This document shows positions 8,455 through 47,683 of a stretch of 64,000 nucleotides of DNA, piece after piece. Origin of the DNA: Candidatus Krumholzibacteriota bacterium. GTDB lineage: Bacteria; Krumholzibacteriota; Krumholzibacteriia; LZORAL124-64-63. Position 1 is the first letter of the stretch. Every line of letters starts with the position of its first letter. The stretch lies in NCBI GenBank assembly GCA_022711765.1, contig JAKLEB010000002.1, positions 939,726 to 1,003,725 on the forward strand. The letters run 5' to 3'. The translations under genes were made by a program, and so were the position numbers. The notes under the pieces are model-generated. The model saw only the letters and a program-made list of their open reading frames with translations. It was not told the DNA's origin and searched no databases.

Positions 8455-9576
8455 GTGGAACACGCTACTCCCAGTGATACGGCGCTCGTGACACTTGCTA
8501 AATGCCTGGCGAGCGAGAAGCCACTTCTAATGGTGGGTGCCGGGCTAAGTAAGCTCGTCGATTATCCGCTATGGAGGGAATTGCTAGACGAATTAAAATG
8601 CGCGCTCGATTCTTCTGTGGCTAGGAATCACGAATTTCTTGTTGGCAAGCTATATGATCGCTATGCGGACGAACTCATAAGGCTGGCGAAACGTCCCGAA
8701 GATCTTGTCCCATTTATCAGGAAGCGGTTCGGCCCGCAAGATGGCTCGCCGCTTTTCGACCCTGATGTCCATTTGCCACTGTTGGAATTGCCATTCTGCG
8801 GTGTTGTGACCACGAACTATGACAGTGTCTTGGAGCATGCGGCAACCGCGCACCTAGCGCAAGAAATTCCATCTGGAATTGATGCCGGCAACACGGAGCT
8901 AAGTCGGCTGAATTGCCAGCCTACGGACCTGTGCAACCAGAATCACCGTACACCAGTCTTTGACCTCCTTCGGCGATTTGCATGTCCTGAGGCTCGCCCG
9001 TATCGGAATGAAGTACTTCACCTCCACGGCCACTATGACACTCCAAATAGCATTATTCTTACGTACTCGGACTACTTGGCGAAATATGGCCCGTTACTTC
9101 CCGGTGGGAAGACTGAACCTAGCGGAAATGTACCATTTCACCACAAGGTGATCTGGTCGCTACTTGTCAGCCATCCGTTTGTGTTCGTTGGCTTCGGGAT
9201 GGAAGACCCTTACTTCATGAAGATGCAGGAGATTATCCGAGCTGAGTTCCGATTAGGAACAGGCTACATTCAGGCAAGGCATTTTGCAGTAATACCCAGC
9301 CACGAAGTCACACCCGATCTCAATAAGGAACTGATGCAGTCAGCTATTTTGCCAGTTCCATACGATCTGCCGGAAGATTTTGAGGATGTTGAGACCCGAT
9401 ACCGGCGGGGTTTGTCTGACTTCTTATGCTCTCTAAGCATTCGCCTGGGTGACTTTAGGAAGCCCCCTGCGGAGCATCCCCCAGCGCGCGAGCCAGAGAT
9501 AGCAGGCCACAGAGATCAATTGCACGGTGAGATTTCCGCAAGAGAGGTCACTAAGCGAATGTTGGACAGGCGATGA
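8455..9576 (+). CDS. SIR2-like domain protein, probable defence effector
   Basis: 373 residues with a SIR2-type NAD-binding fold. Gly-Ala-Gly-Leu-Ser at 28-32 matches the first NAD motif. Thr-Thr-Asn-Tyr-Asp at 119-123 matches the catalytic Asn-x-Asp motif. His-Leu-His-Gly-His at 189-193 carries the catalytic His. Val-Gly-Phe-Gly-Met-Glu-Asp at 245-251 is the C-terminal NAD-binding strand of the SIR2_2 branch. No zinc-finger Cys4 is present, as usual for defence SIR2 domains that destroy NAD+ instead of deacetylating. The GTG is preceded by CGGAG at 7 bases. Its stop overlaps the start of the large NTPase by four bases (ATGA), so the two form one translationally coupled unit. GC is clearly below the flanks (58% in the line 8461-8520). 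NAD+ depletion on phage sensing is inferred from family knowledge. Confidence 0.85.
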   Translation: MEHATPSDTALVTLAKCLASEKPLLMVGAGLSKLVDYPLWRELLDELKCALDSSVARNHEFLVGKLYDRYADELIRLAKRPEDLVPFIRKRFGPQDGSPLFDPDVHLPLLELPFCGVVTTNYDSVLEHAATAHLAQEIPSGIDAGNTELSRLNCQPTDLCNQNHRTPVFDLLRRFACPEARPYRNEVLHLHGHYDTPNSIILTYSDYLAKYGPLLPGGKTEPSGNVPFHHKVIWSLLVSHPFVFVGFGMEDPYFMKMQEIIRAEFRLGTGYIQARHFAVIPSHEVTPDLNKELMQSAILPVPYDLPEDFEDVETRYRRGLSDFLCSLSIRLGDFRKPPAEHPPAREPEIAGHRDQLHGEISAREVTKRMLDRR

Positions 9577-12500
9577 ACATAGAACGAACTCAATTGATGC
9601 GCTCCCTGGCGACCTTTGTTGAAGGCGGGCATGTTGTTGTACTCGGTGCTCCTGGTGTAGGGAAGTCCCACACCCTGGTCCAGTTCGCTCAGCAGCTGCT
9701 GGAAGCCGAACGTAAATGCGTGTTCGTTCCCATTGACAATTTAATCGTAAGCACTGAGGAGGACCTTAAATCAGAACTCGGGTTTAAGAGTGCCGATTTT
9801 GTGGGGTTCCTCACAAGTCAAGCGCTGGGGAAGGGTGAGAAAGGCATCCTCATTTTTGATGCTTTTGATGCGGCGCGTTCAGAGCAAGCACGTCGTGTTT
9901 ACCTCCGCGTGATTCGGCAAGTGATTAGAGAGCTGGGTGAATCTTGGACGGTTGTCGTAAGTGCTCGCCTATATGATGCGAAGAAGTGCATGGATCTGAT
10001 TGATTTGTTTTCCAAACAGGAAAACGAAGAAGGTGATACCTTCACTGTTCCCTCTGGGGATGTCAACTGCCGTCACTTTTTTATCCCTGAGCTCACGGTA
10101 GACGAAATTCAGAAGGCAGACGTGCCGGGCCTCTGGAATCTCTATGAGCATAGCTCACCTGGTCTGCAAACCCTTCTTCGAATACCATTCAACATCTGGC
10201 TCATCGAGCGTATAGCTTCGTCTAGTCATGACATTTCTGGTTTGAGCAATGTTCAATCTGAGGTCGAATTACTGGATGTATACTGGACGCGGCGAGTCGA
10301 GGCGAGCAGTCGCAACGAAAATCTGCGACTTCTTCTGCTCAAAGCAACTCGGTTAATGGTAGGCACTCGGTCTCTGGCCATTCGACGTGAGGAGGTCTAC
10401 GACCCAAAACTGACGGACGCGTGGCAGGAATTGATGAGCTTGGAGATATTGCAGGACGTCCCACCAGAGGGACAACGCGTTGCATTCCGCCACAATATCC
10501 TGTTCGACTACGCGGTGAGCGTGCTCCTCATCGAGGATACACCGGGTGATTTCGAGCGATTTATAGGTGCGGACCCGTCGCGTCCACTATTCCTGCGGCG
10601 CAGCTTGGACTACTTCTTTACACGTTTGTGGTACGCGAAGCCGGAATCATTCTGGACTATTCTCTGGCACATTCTGCCAAACGCTGCAGTACAAATTCGG
10701 CTGTTTGCCCGTTTGCTTCCGATGGCCGTTGTTGCAAACGAACTCAAGCATGCAGAGGAGTTGCAGCCCCTCTTTGACCATTGCGGCGTAGATCGCGAAC
10801 TTGGGGATGAGGCTATTCTGCGTCTGCTTCAAGCGCTTCGCGCTTTGAACATCCAACGGGATGAGGTGTGGTGCCCAATCCTGCATCATCTATCTCGGAA
10901 TCTGAGTCAATCCTTTGTGGCAGATCTCGTAACCTATCTTTCGACGGTATTCGATCGTGCGAAGAAGTCGGAGGATCCGGCACTCGTCGCTGCTTGTGGC
11001 AGTACGGCTCGGAAAGTACTGGAATGGGTGTGGCGCCAGCGCGGGACCGTAGAGGGTAAGCGTTTCGACCGTCTAGGCAGCGGGTGGGTTCTTCCCATCA
11101 TCGCACAATCATTCTCCTCCGCGCCTCAAGAGTCGCGGCGCATTCTAGAGCCGATTCTGGCGATCGTAAAGGAGAATGGGTTCCCCATAGACTTCCTTTA
11201 CCGGCTCACCCATGACCTCAAATTCATCGTGTCGTCGGACCCCGAGTTCGTCGGTATGGTCTACAGGGCCGTATTCGAGAATCCGGAAACGAGCGATGAA
11301 AAGACCGAGATGGGCACTCCAATTCTGCCCATGTCCAGTACACGACGCCAAGATTACCAGATGTGCCACTACAATCTGAAAGAGCAGTATCTTGCATTCA
11401 TTGAAGCCGCGCCTGAAGTCGCAATAGAGACCGCGATTCACTGCCTCGGGGCTTTCATCTTGGGGGCCCACGTCGTTCCCCACTTAAATGAAGGAGCCAA
11501 GCTGAGCGATCTCATCCAGGAGTTCCCATTCCGTGGGAAACAGGCATGCATCATGGCAGATTTGAGTTGGATCTGGGGTGAATCGCATTATCCCGATGAG
11601 CCCATGGCTATCGCATCGACGTTATTCGAGTTCTTGGAAAAGGCAGGACAGGACCCAGGGAGCGTTGCATTCATAGAGTCGGCGCTGGATATCTTCCGAG
11701 ATAATGCGATGGTGGGCTATTTTTGGGCGGGGCTCCTTGATCTTGGTGCTCGAGCCCCCGACCGATTCGCAACTCCGCTCTTCGAGCTTTGCACGGCGTT
11801 TCCAATTCAAACGGGCAATGATACGATTCACGAACTAGCCGGGTTCGTTGAGGCAGCAGTGCCTCACTTTGACTCGGATATGCTACGTGAAATGGAAGAG
11901 TCGTTGATCGCGTTACCGGCCAAAGCCGACGAACACAATACTCGTGCGTTACTGGAGAGTCGCAGGAATTTGCTTCTGGCTAGAATTCCCCGTGGCCAAC
12001 TCCAGACCGATGAGGCACGGGCGGTCATGGCCGAACTTGAGGCCGCGGGAAGAGTTCCTGGGAATGAACCCCTTGTGAAGTTTACGACCGAATCTCGCCC
12101 CTATAGCGAAGCGGAGTGGCTTGAGGACCAAGGCGCAAATTTAGAGAAGGAAGAGAATGCAACGTTGCATGCTTTCTTTGCGCCCCTTGATGGCTTCGTA
12201 TCCGAGTGGAGGAACAAGCGGCCTACAAAAGAAGCGGCAAAAGGCATCGCGCCAACTCTTCAAGGTGCATTTGCATTGCTGCATGAAGACCACGGCGCGG
12301 ACAAGCCGGTGGAGAATTCCCTGTGGACGAAGATCGGTGAATGCGCGGAAACGATGGCCAAGGCAACCGAAGACGAAGGAAGCGAAGAATTCCGGCTGTG
12401 TAGGCGCGTACTCCTTGAATGCTCGGGCCATCCAGAACCTAAGCCCGATCCTAAGTACGACGACAAGTTTGAGCACGCAGGTTGGTCGCCGGCTCCAAGG

Positions 12501-13613
12501 AACGAAGCGGCCCAAGGTCTCCCTTGGATCGCCGTCTGGACTGGGGGTGACACAGAAGTGGCGTTGGCGATCGAGGCCCTTGTGAGTGATCCGAAGCCGT
12601 CGGTCAGGTACTTGGTGACAAGTGATCTCTTTCGGTTGAGACGGCATTATGAGGATCTGTTCTGGCGGCTCGTAGATCGCGTTGCCGAGCAGGAAACCAA
12701 CCGGGTTGTCCAACAAGCACTCTGCCGGACTTTGACATACGTCGTTGCCCGCGATGAGGAGAAGACCTGCCGCATCCTCGACAAGCTAAAGGTCGCCACT
12801 CTCCAGGCCGGGGAGGAAGCGGAACTCCTTGGTACATACGTTAACATGGTTATGTGGCTAAGCATAGTTCGTAGAAACGAATGGGCCAGGGCTACAGCAG
12901 ACGAGTTTCTGGCGAATCCGTATCGTCATAGCAAGGCACTTCATCGTTCGACTTTGGATGCGCTTTCGTACGTGACTCCTGCATTCCTTACGGGCGAAGA
13001 AAAGCGTGTGCATGCAGAACAGGCACGTGAGTGGTTGGGCCGGGCGATTGATGCGGCGGCGTTGGAGTTGCAGCGAATTCAGAGTCTCGCGCCAGAAGAG
13101 ATCACAGAGGATATCCAGTCGGTTGCCCATAATGTGTATAGGGTCATCGATGAGGTCGTAATGCGGTTCTACTTCAGCTCAGGGCTATTCAAGGGATCGC
13201 GGGATGGCGAGCCGGTCACAAGTGAGGAGCGAGGAGTATTCTACCGCTTTATCAAGCCGCTGCTCGAGCAGGTGATCAGGGTGTCAGACGGAGAAGGCGG
13301 AGGCGTTTTCTTTGCCCGGACGGCCCATCATTTCATGGAACTACTGAACGGGGTTCTGGAATATGACCCGCGCGGTGTGTTGCACATGGCGCATCGGCTA
13401 GCGGCTATTTCGCAGGCCGGCAGGTACCATTTCGATTCGATGGCCGTGAATGAAGTTGTGAAACTTGTCGAATCGACTCTGGCGAACCATCGTGCGGAGG
13501 TTGGTGACGGCGAATGTCTCGACGACCTTTTGGGGCTGCTCGACATCTTTGCCGCGGTTGGATGGCCTGAGGCTCTGCGTCTTGTCTGGCGGTTGGACGA
13601 GGTGTTTAGATAG
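9573..13613 (+). CDS. Large STAND/AAA-like NTPase, probable sensor partner of the SIR2 protein
   Basis: 1346 residues. The N-terminal P-loop domain has Walker A Gly-Ala-Pro-Gly-Val-Gly-Lys-Ser at 25-32, Walker B Ile-Leu-Ile-Phe-Asp-Ala-Phe-Asp at 92-99 and a sensor-like Val-Val-Val-Ser-Ala-Arg at 127-132. A helical segment follows, including Leu-Arg-Ile-Pro-Phe-Asn near 205 and Arg-His-Asn-Ile-Leu-Phe-Asp-Tyr near 308. This arrangement recalls STAND or NACHT-type NTPases. The remaining ~1000 residues are alpha-helical, without a recognised catalytic motif, and look like degenerate HEAT/armadillo-type repeats. STAND proteins use such regions to sense ligands, then oligomerise with ATP. With the SIR2 gene directly upstream (ATGA overlap), a sensor-effector pair is the natural reading. 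GC is low (47% in 10021-10080). The 3' end runs straight into an IS3 fragment. Confidence 0.75.
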   Translation: MNIERTQLMRSLATFVEGGHVVVLGAPGVGKSHTLVQFAQQLLEAERKCVFVPIDNLIVSTEEDLKSELGFKSADFVGFLTSQALGKGEKGILIFDAFDAARSEQARRVYLRVIRQVIRELGESWTVVVSARLYDAKKCMDLIDLFSKQENEEGDTFTVPSGDVNCRHFFIPELTVDEIQKADVPGLWNLYEHSSPGLQTLLRIPFNIWLIERIASSSHDISGLSNVQSEVELLDVYWTRRVEASSRNENLRLLLLKATRLMVGTRSLAIRREEVYDPKLTDAWQELMSLEILQDVPPEGQRVAFRHNILFDYAVSVLLIEDTPGDFERFIGADPSRPLFLRRSLDYFFTRLWYAKPESFWTILWHILPNAAVQIRLFARLLPMAVVANELKHAEELQPLFDHCGVDRELGDEAILRLLQALRALNIQRDEVWCPILHHLSRNLSQSFVADLVTYLSTVFDRAKKSEDPALVAACGSTARKVLEWVWRQRGTVEGKRFDRLGSGWVLPIIAQSFSSAPQESRRILEPILAIVKENGFPIDFLYRLTHDLKFIVSSDPEFVGMVYRAVFENPETSDEKTEMGTPILPMSSTRRQDYQMCHYNLKEQYLAFIEAAPEVAIETAIHCLGAFILGAHVVPHLNEGAKLSDLIQEFPFRGKQACIMADLSWIWGESHYPDEPMAIASTLFEFLEKAGQDPGSVAFIESALDIFRDNAMVGYFWAGLLDLGARAPDRFATPLFELCTAFPIQTGNDTIHELAGFVEAAVPHFDSDMLREMEESLIALPAKADEHNTRALLESRRNLLLARIPRGQLQTDEARAVMAELEAAGRVPGNEPLVKFTTESRPYSEAEWLEDQGANLEKEENATLHAFFAPLDGFVSEWRNKRPTKEAAKGIAPTLQGAFALLHEDHGADKPVENSLWTKIGECAETMAKATEDEGSEEFRLCRRVLLECSGHPEPKPDPKYDDKFEHAGWSPAPRNEAAQGLPWIAVWTGGDTEVALAIEALVSDPKPSVRYLVTSDLFRLRRHYEDLFWRLVDRVAEQETNRVVQQALCRTLTYVVARDEEKTCRILDKLKVATLQAGEEAELLGTYVNMVMWLSIVRRNEWARATADEFLANPYRHSKALHRSTLDALSYVTPAFLTGEEKRVHAEQAREWLGRAIDAAALELQRIQSLAPEEITEDIQSVAHNVYRVIDEVVMRFYFSSGLFKGSRDGEPVTSEERGVFYRFIKPLLEQVIRVSDGEGGGVFFARTAHHFMELLNGVLEYDPRGVLHMAHRLAAISQAGRYHFDSMAVNEVVKLVESTLANHRAEVGDGECLDDLLGLLDIFAAVGWPEALRLVWRLDEVFR

Positions 13614-45502: not shown

Positions 45503-46237
45503 TCAGCCGCGCGCTTCCTCACGCGCGTCGTTCGTCCCCGGACGCCCTGCGACGTCGAGGGGCAGCGCGAGGATCTCGCGCAGGTCGCCGATCGTCCAGT
45601 CCGCGCGATCGAGCTCGTCGGGCTCGCCGAACCCGAATCGGCAGCCGATCGTCCGGGCGCCCAGGGCGCGGCCCGCCTCGATATCGTGCACCCGGTCGCC
45701 GACCACGACGACGTCCGCGTAGCCCCGGGCGAGGTGGCGGACCATGCCGGTCTTGTGGCGGGCCAGCCGGCGCCGGACCGCGAACTCGAGCGACAGCGTG
45801 CGGCTGAACCAGCGTTCGAGCCCGTGCACCTCGATGACCGCCTGGAAGTACGGCTCGCTCGCGTTGCTGAAGAGGGCGAGATCGTGGCCGCGCTCCCGCA
45901 GCGCGGTCAACGTCTCCTGCGCGCCGTCGTAGAGCTGCGATTCGCCCCGCCGGAGCGCCGCCACCTCCGCGCGCACCGACAGGACCTCGAATTCGCTCGC
46001 GAACGCGTCGCGCAGCTCCGCCGCGACCGTCGCGGCGTCGAAGGCGGCCCGGAAGAACGTGGTGCTCGGCAAGCCCATCGCGAGGCTGATCCGCTCGCGG
46101 TCGATCGCGGGGACCGGCAGCTCGAAGTGCTCGTAGGTCGCGATCAGGGCCTCCGCCACGGCGTCGATGACGGCGTGTCGGCCGTCCATCAGGGTCCCGT
46201 CGGTGTCGAAGATGACGACTCTGCCGGAACTCGTCAT
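45503..46237 (-). CDS. HAD-superfamily phosphatase
   Basis: 244 residues. Motif I is Phe-Asp-Thr-Asp-Gly-Thr-Leu-Met-Asp-Gly near residue 10. Motif II is Leu-Phe-Ser-Asn-Ala near 120. Motif III Lys is in Arg-His-Lys-Thr-Gly, and motif IV is Val-Gly-Asp-Arg-Val-His-Asp-Ile-Glu-Ala-Gly. A helical cap lies between motifs I and II, as in phosphoglycolate phosphatases. It hydrolyses small phosphate esters; the substrate is not given. Its ATG overlaps the stop of the upstream selenoprotein gene (ATGA), so the two are translated together. Confidence 0.88.
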   Translation of the reverse strand: MTSSGRVVIFDTDGTLMDGRHAVIDAVAEALIATYEHFELPVPAIDRERISLAMGLPSTTFFRAAFDAATVAAELRDAFASEFEVLSVRAEVAALRRGESQLYDGAQETLTALRERGHDLALFSNASEPYFQAVIEVHGLERWFSRTLSLEFAVRRRLARHKTGMVRHLARGYADVVVVGDRVHDIEAGRALGARTIGCRFGFGEPDELDRADWTIGDLREILALPLDVAGRPGTNDAREEARG

Positions 46238-46467
46238 GGACGCTCCTCGTGCCTGGCCAGCGGCTCCATGACCTCGCGGTCCTCCGGGAAACGGCCCTGG
46301 GCCCGCTTCGAGAAGATCAATTCGCCGTCGACCGTGACCTCGAACACGCCCCCGCTGGAGGCGATCAAAACGACCTCGCAGCCGAAGCGATCCTCGATCC
46401 GCGCGGCCAGACCGGTCGCGTGCGGCTCGTAGTTTCAGACTCGACAGTACTCGATGGTCACCTTCAT
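46234..46467 (-). CDS. SelW/Rdx-family selenoprotein with in-frame UGA (Sec) codon
   Basis: 77 residues when the UGA at 46437-46435 is read as selenocysteine. The protein begins Met-Lys-Val-Thr-Ile-Glu-Tyr-Cys-Arg-Val-Sec-Asn-Tyr, giving the redox motif CxxU at residues 8-11, where SelW/SelT/SelH relatives have CxxU or CxxC. Downstream Ser-Ser-Gly-Gly-Val-Phe-Glu-Val-Thr-Val-Asp-Gly and Phe-Ser-Lys with Gly-Arg-Phe-Pro-Glu are Rdx-family hallmarks. The ATG has AAGGA 8 bases upstream. The coding frame otherwise has no stop up to the TGA at 46236, which overlaps the HAD start by four bases. The gap between dehydrogenase and HAD would look empty under normal annotation. A thioredoxin-like fold for thiol redox work in the cytoplasm is expected. 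It requires SelB, SelC and SelD elsewhere in the genome. Confidence 0.85.
46399..46437 (-). promoter_or_regulatory. Bacterial SECIS element of the SelW-like gene
   Basis: Starting 9 bases after the UGA on the minus strand, an RNA hairpin forms with CCG/CGG (46425-46423 with 46401-46399), a two-base bulge, CGCG/CGCG (46420-46417 with 46405-46402), one A-C mismatch and CC/GG, closing on the apical loop GGUCU (46413-46409). The GGU begins 21 bases after the UGA. GGUCU is also the loop of the E. coli fdhF SECIS that binds SelB, as I remember it. Sequence only; folding was done by eye. Confidence 0.75.
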
Positions 46468-46507
46468 GTCGATGTCCTTCGTGGCGGACGGCGCGGGGAC
46501 CGGCTCG

Positions 46508-47683
46508 CTAGAACTGGATGAGCGGTTTCGGCCAGTCCGCGAGCGTCCGCTCGAAGCCGGCCAGAGCGAAGTCCTCGATGTGCACGACGGCTTCCTCGCC
46601 GCCGCCCAGGATCACGTCGTGGATCCGCGCCTGGATGCCGTTGCTCTGGTCCTCGAGGAGATTCCGCGTGACGTACCAGTCGGCGAAGATGCGCCTGCCG
46701 ATGACGGAGTGCAGCGAGATGCCGTTGACGATCAGGCGATCCATGGCCTGGATCTGGGCGTCGCCCTGCTTGAGCCCGAACAAGATGACGTCGCCGCCGC
46801 GGCGCGTCGACTGGATCGCGTTGTTCACCGACGAGTTGTAGCCCGCCATCTCGAGGCTCACGTCGGCGCCGATGCCGCCGAAGGCCTCGCGGACCTGCTT
46901 GACGAGTTCGTCGTCGGCTCGCCAGTCCGAGGCGGCCAGGCGCTGGGCGTCGAGCACGATCACGTCGTCCGCGCCGAGCCGGCGCGCCATCTCGGCGTTC
47001 TTCGGATTGGGCTCGATGCCGATGACGCGGGTGGCGCCGAGCGACCGGGCGACCATCACGACGAACAGGCCGATGGTCCCGCAGCCGAACACCGCCACCG
47101 TCTTGCCGCGAAGGTCGGCGGTCGTCGCCGCGTGCACGGCGTTGCCGAACGGCTCCTGGATGGCCGCCACCTTCAGCTTGATCTTGCGCTGGTCGGTGGG
47201 CCAGAGCGTCTGCGCCGGGAGCTTCAGGTACTCGGCGAAGCAGCCGTCCTGGGCGATGCCGATGATGATGTCGTTGGCGCAGATGTGGGTCTGGCCGATC
47301 CGGCACTGGTAGCACACGTTGCAGATGATGTGGCTCTCGGTCGAGACGATGTCCTTGCGCCGGTAGCCGTACGTGCGCGCGGCGCGGTCCCCGACCTCCA
47401 CCAGCTCGCCGACCATCTCGTGGCCGATGATGCGGACCGTCTTGTCCTCGCGCTTGAGGCTGTCGAAGATCATCCCCTTGAACGCGTTCCGGTTCCAGAT
47501 GCCCCGGTCGCTGCCGCAGAAGCCGGCGTAGATCACCTTGACGATGACCCGGTCGGCGTCCTGGGGGTCCTGCTGCGGATCGAGCGTCGGGCGCGGCATG
47601 GCCCGCTTCTCGAACCCGCGGGTCTGGTCCCATGGCATCGTGGACTTGTCGTAGACCAGCGCGAGCATCTGTTCGGGTTTCAC
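46508..47683 (-). CDS. Zinc-dependent alcohol dehydrogenase-family protein
   Basis: 391 residues, MDR type. Catalytic zinc Cys in Gly-Phe-Cys-Gly-Ser-Asp, then Gly-His-Glu-Met-Val-Gly-Glu. The structural zinc cluster is Cys-Asn-Val-Cys-Tyr-Gln-Cys with a later His-Ile-Cys, and the Rossmann motif Gly-Cys-Gly-Thr-Ile-Gly with Glu in Gly-Ile-Glu-Pro-Asn, a form preferring NAD. It would oxidise an alcohol or polyol such as sorbitol or threonine; the substrate is not readable. The GTG has GGAGGT 6 bases upstream. The selenoprotein gene begins 40 bases after its stop and the HAD gene follows, suggesting one operon. Confidence 0.87.
   Translation of the reverse strand: MKPEQMLALVYDKSTMPWDQTRGFEKRAMPRPTLDPQQDPQDADRVIVKVIYAGFCGSDRGIWNRNAFKGMIFDSLKREDKTVRIIGHEMVGELVEVGDRAARTYGYRRKDIVSTESHIICNVCYQCRIGQTHICANDIIIGIAQDGCFAEYLKLPAQTLWPTDQRKIKLKVAAIQEPFGNAVHAATTADLRGKTVAVFGCGTIGLFVVMVARSLGATRVIGIEPNPKNAEMARRLGADDVIVLDAQRLAASDWRADDELVKQVREAFGGIGADVSLEMAGYNSSVNNAIQSTRRGGDVILFGLKQGDAQIQAMDRLIVNGISLHSVIGRRIFADWYVTRNLLEDQSNGIQARIHDVILGGGEEAVVHIEDFALAGFERTLADWPKPLIQF

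Follow-up and report, generated by a model that had tools for sequence, protein, structure and literature searches.

On its minus strand, the 64-kb window (the whole stretch of Krumholzibacteriota DNA that was analyzed) very probably carries a translated gene for a SelW-like selenoprotein of the Rdx family at positions 46234..46467. According to this interpretation, to which we assign a probability of about 0.96, selenocysteine is inserted at residue 11 under the direction of a SECIS element, the product is a CxxU redox protein and the gene is probably part of an operon. Judged by all sequence tests, the selenoprotein gene is genuine, and it was confirmed as a gene that is dropped by a plain ORF search. 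The initial annotation had given the correct coordinates but left the strand unstated.

A zinc dehydrogenase gene and a HAD gene flank the gap that contains the gene. The frame, which runs from 46467 down to 46234, starts with ATG, encodes 77 residues and ends with TGA. The full read-through product, MKVTIEYCRVUNYEPHATGLAARIEDRFGCEVVLIASSGGVFEVTVDGELIFSKRAQGRFPEDREVMEPLARHEERP, opens with MKVTIEYCRV-U-NYEPH, continues through SSGGVFEVTVDGELIFSK and closes with HEERP directly ahead of the stop codon. The in-frame UGA of Sec11 occupies positions 46435..46437 (minus strand, read 46437..46435), and the TGT codon of Cys8, which is supported by the sequence and by the homologues, occupies 46444..46446 (minus strand, read 46446..46444). 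Together they form the motif C8-R-V-U11 (CRVU) near the N terminus, the Cys-x-x-Sec arrangement around codon 11 that had been proposed at the outset. An AAGGA ribosome-binding site is positioned at 46475..46479 (minus strand) with a spacer of 7 nt to the selW ATG, and the selW stop codon (46236..46234) overlaps the start codon of the HAD gene as ATGA; both features had been noted before and are visible in the sequence. It had also been claimed that gene callers miss selW. The ORF list of the window indeed contains no table-11 ORF of at least 60 amino acids in this frame, and omission by gene callers is plausible.

With the TGA read through, the product matches Pfam Rdx (PF10262) with an E value of 1e-20 and 74.2 bits (cutoff 22.6), NCBIfam NF041051 with 94.9 bits (cutoff 88) and TIGR02174 with a score of 61.3 (cutoff 34.2). 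All three scores exceed their cutoffs, in agreement with the family membership suggested before. The solved relatives identified by sequence match are likewise SelW/Rdx proteins (2fa8, 2npb and others). No phage homologue was found. Because the family match extends over both sides of the UGA and the UGA is conserved in tens of genomes, a chance origin of the frame can be excluded.

Within the order, selW was present in 37 of 38 genomes, and every copy contained an in-frame TGA. Codon 11 itself was read in 30 order loci, including the window, and was the same UGA in all 30. Across the phylum, the gene was present in 50 of 80 genomes with one in-frame TGA in each of the 50. Among 67 public-genome loci, which include several from the same order as the window, the site is occupied by TGA except in four loci with TGC for cysteine (L065, L070, L071 and L115). 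The SelW sequences of L051, L052, L063 and L117 are those of L034, L032, L049 and the partial match of G002, respectively, and these four loci are apparently public records of order members. Thus the homologues have either Sec (UGA) or Cys at this site throughout, and homologues lacking both, which the initial annotation had named as grounds for rejection, did not occur. In a single sequence, a change from TGC or TGT to TGA would look identical if it resulted from a sequencing error or from a nonsense mutation in a former Cys-type Rdx gene. However, nearly every genome of the order has this same TGA, which also recurs in many phyla, and downstream of it the frame is kept as protein and the nucleotides are kept as a hairpin. 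Owing to the conserved UGA and the Sec/Cys exchange at the site, a pseudogene or sequencing error is excluded for practical purposes, with a vanishingly small residual probability.

The genome from which the window originates (3.96 Mb, four contigs, 94% complete) encodes all four parts of the selenocysteine machinery. SelA was detected with 379 bits, SelB above the cutoff as an open frame of 766 amino acids, tRNA-Sec (selC) with 66.2 bits and the anticodon TCA (UCA in the tRNA), and SelD with 354.5 bits. The absence of this machinery, which had been put forward as a refutation of the selenoprotein gene, was therefore not observed. These data also bear on the explanation that the UGA codes for a standard amino acid such as tryptophan, by a genome-wide code change or by programmed readthrough that is free of selenium. 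This explanation would account for a frame that is open only if the UGA is read, but selW itself and the neighboring HAD gene both end in TGA, the genome harbors the complete Sec machinery and the exceptional homologues contain Cys, not Trp, at the site. Decoding as a standard amino acid is thus extremely improbable, and selenocysteine remains the preferred reading of the codon.

Further selenoprotein genes were observed in the same genome. The selD gene contains one in-frame TGA in the motif FAKSAG-U (L018, position 1531). Two formate dehydrogenase alpha-type genes, located on C1 and C4, contain an in-frame UGA (L118, position 1951; L119, position 1906) in the motif HCARL-U-HSSTVAGL; both score below the curated cutoff of the one FdhA model used, and both show a GGUCU loop with a GCC/GGC stem 18 nt downstream of the UGA. 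The lineage is thus a Sec-decoding one, whose selenoprotein genes include at least those for SelW, SelD and two FdhA proteins. The selenouridine synthase gene ybbB was not found in the genome, and no selenouridine trait was detected. A crude scan of the window gaps for other UGA-containing frames, in which family libraries were tried on part of the frames only, gave no convincing second case, and most frames listed were long non-coding read-throughs.

A SECIS-type hairpin is predicted at 46403..46419 (minus strand) from its conserved stem, from synonymous covariation and from the likeness of its loop to that of the FdhA-type genes. Its apical loop GGUCU (46413..46409) lies 21 nt downstream of the UGA and is closed by a GC-rich stem. 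Conservation and covariation thus point to the arrangement that defines bacterial SECIS elements, a hairpin just after the UGA with a G in a small apical loop. The loop is formed by the codon of Gly19, which is GGT in 23 of the 24 cases with glycine among the 30 order loci, compared to 26 of 146 other glycine codons of the gene (Fisher p=7e-14, a value that is inflated, as these p values ignore shared ancestry). The stem includes the third bases of the Ala17 and Ala21 codons, both of which are synonymous positions. In 56 distinct sequences with alanine at both sites, these bases were C-G in 41, G-C in eight, U-A in four, U-G in two and C-A in one. The combinations C-C and G-G were absent from all 56, both inside and outside the order, and this absence is a firmer point than the p values. 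RNAalifold and pair counting gave the same stem, with double-sided changes confined to one pair.

The possibility was also considered that there is no SECIS element, that the nucleotides after the UGA are kept for protein coding only and that any Sec insertion depends on something else. It agrees with single-sequence folding, in which the hairpin of the window showed no excess stability over shuffled sequence (z about 0); therefore, the case for the SECIS element rests on the alignment evidence, i.e. on conservation and covariation. Protein coding does not account for alanine wobble bases that covary as base pairs, nor for a loop glycine codon that is almost always GGT while the other glycine positions vary freely. 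A gene that dispenses with a SECIS element is consequently very improbable, and the SECIS hairpin after the selW UGA is supported by the third-base covariation and the almost fixed GGT. At gathering scores, Rfam yielded nothing within the 64-kb window. The third-base covariation provides a clean example of how a bacterial SECIS element can be backed from sequence alone.

According to the proposed mechanism, SelB carrying Sec-tRNA(Sec) would bind the hairpin just 3' of the UGA and place selenocysteine at position 11 of the protein. A small thioredoxin-like Rdx protein is predicted as the product, based on sequence matches to solved Rdx/SelW structures, in which Cys8-x-x-Sec11 may act as a selenenylsulfide/selenolthiol redox center. 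Its role is probably thiol reduction or peroxide defense.

The initial annotation overrated the novelty of the gene, as bacterial SelW-like selenoproteins have already been described (PMC1088965, PMC1794560). In the Sargasso Sea selenoproteome, no family is more abundant than the SelW-like selenoproteins with bacterial SECIS elements; the same study terms the function of the bacterial proteins unclear (PMC1088965). Further members are known from Desulfotalea, Geobacter sulfurreducens and others (PMC1794560). The selW gene described here belongs to this family, which has been known in bacteria since about 2005. It shares with the described members (PF10262, NF041051/TIGR02174) the sequence family, the size, the CxxU motif, the SSGGVFEVTVDG segment and the UGA with a downstream bacterial SECIS element. 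It differs in that it occurs in the Krumholzibacteriota lineage and appears to share an operon with the genes for a HAD hydrolase and a threonine-dehydrogenase-like zinc dehydrogenase. The Cys-type Rdx proteins, represented by the four TGC loci and by structure 2fa8, are homologous to the SelW of the window over most of its length, but at the site corresponding to Sec11 the four loci encode Cys.

The less expected point is the pairing of selW with a dehydrogenase gene throughout the order, which is most likely the feature of greatest interest to specialists. The gene upstream of selW (46508..47683, minus strand) encodes a zinc-dependent medium-chain dehydrogenase, identified by family matches and by its order-wide position; it is closest to L-threonine 3-dehydrogenases, yet scores below their curated cutoffs. 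In 29 of 30 order loci (the window and L022-L050), the gene for this dehydrogenase immediately precedes selW, a count in which only 85 upstream bases were covered for L028. The dehydrogenases of the order loci, apart from the window itself, are 70-83% identical, and the gap between their stop codon and the selW start measures 7-61 nt. Outside the order, no such dehydrogenase was found beside selW within flanks of up to 3 kb. The gene downstream of selW (45503..46237, minus strand), whose start forms the ATGA overlap, encodes a HAD-superfamily hydrolase. Within the genus of the window, and in L049, L050 and L063 as well, it is the gene after selW. In the remaining order loci it was not found. 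The dehydrogenase, selW and HAD genes probably share one operon and would then be cotranscribed. The order-wide pairing with one dehydrogenase offers a testable lead on the unsettled function of bacterial SelW. A tentative and rather doubtful proposal is that SelW in this order might be a dedicated redox partner of the upstream threonine-dehydrogenase-like zinc enzyme, e.g. by keeping zinc-site or catalytic cysteines reduced; if true, this would give bacterial SelW a concrete client.

Elsewhere in the window, at positions 8455-13613 (plus strand), the gene for a SIR2-like protein (PF13289) precedes one for a 1346-amino-acid protein that matches PDC-M54A (E=8e-191), a PADLOC candidate defense family. 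The third-position GC content of the latter gene is below that of most surrounding genes. The two genes probably represent an acquired anti-phage defense pair.
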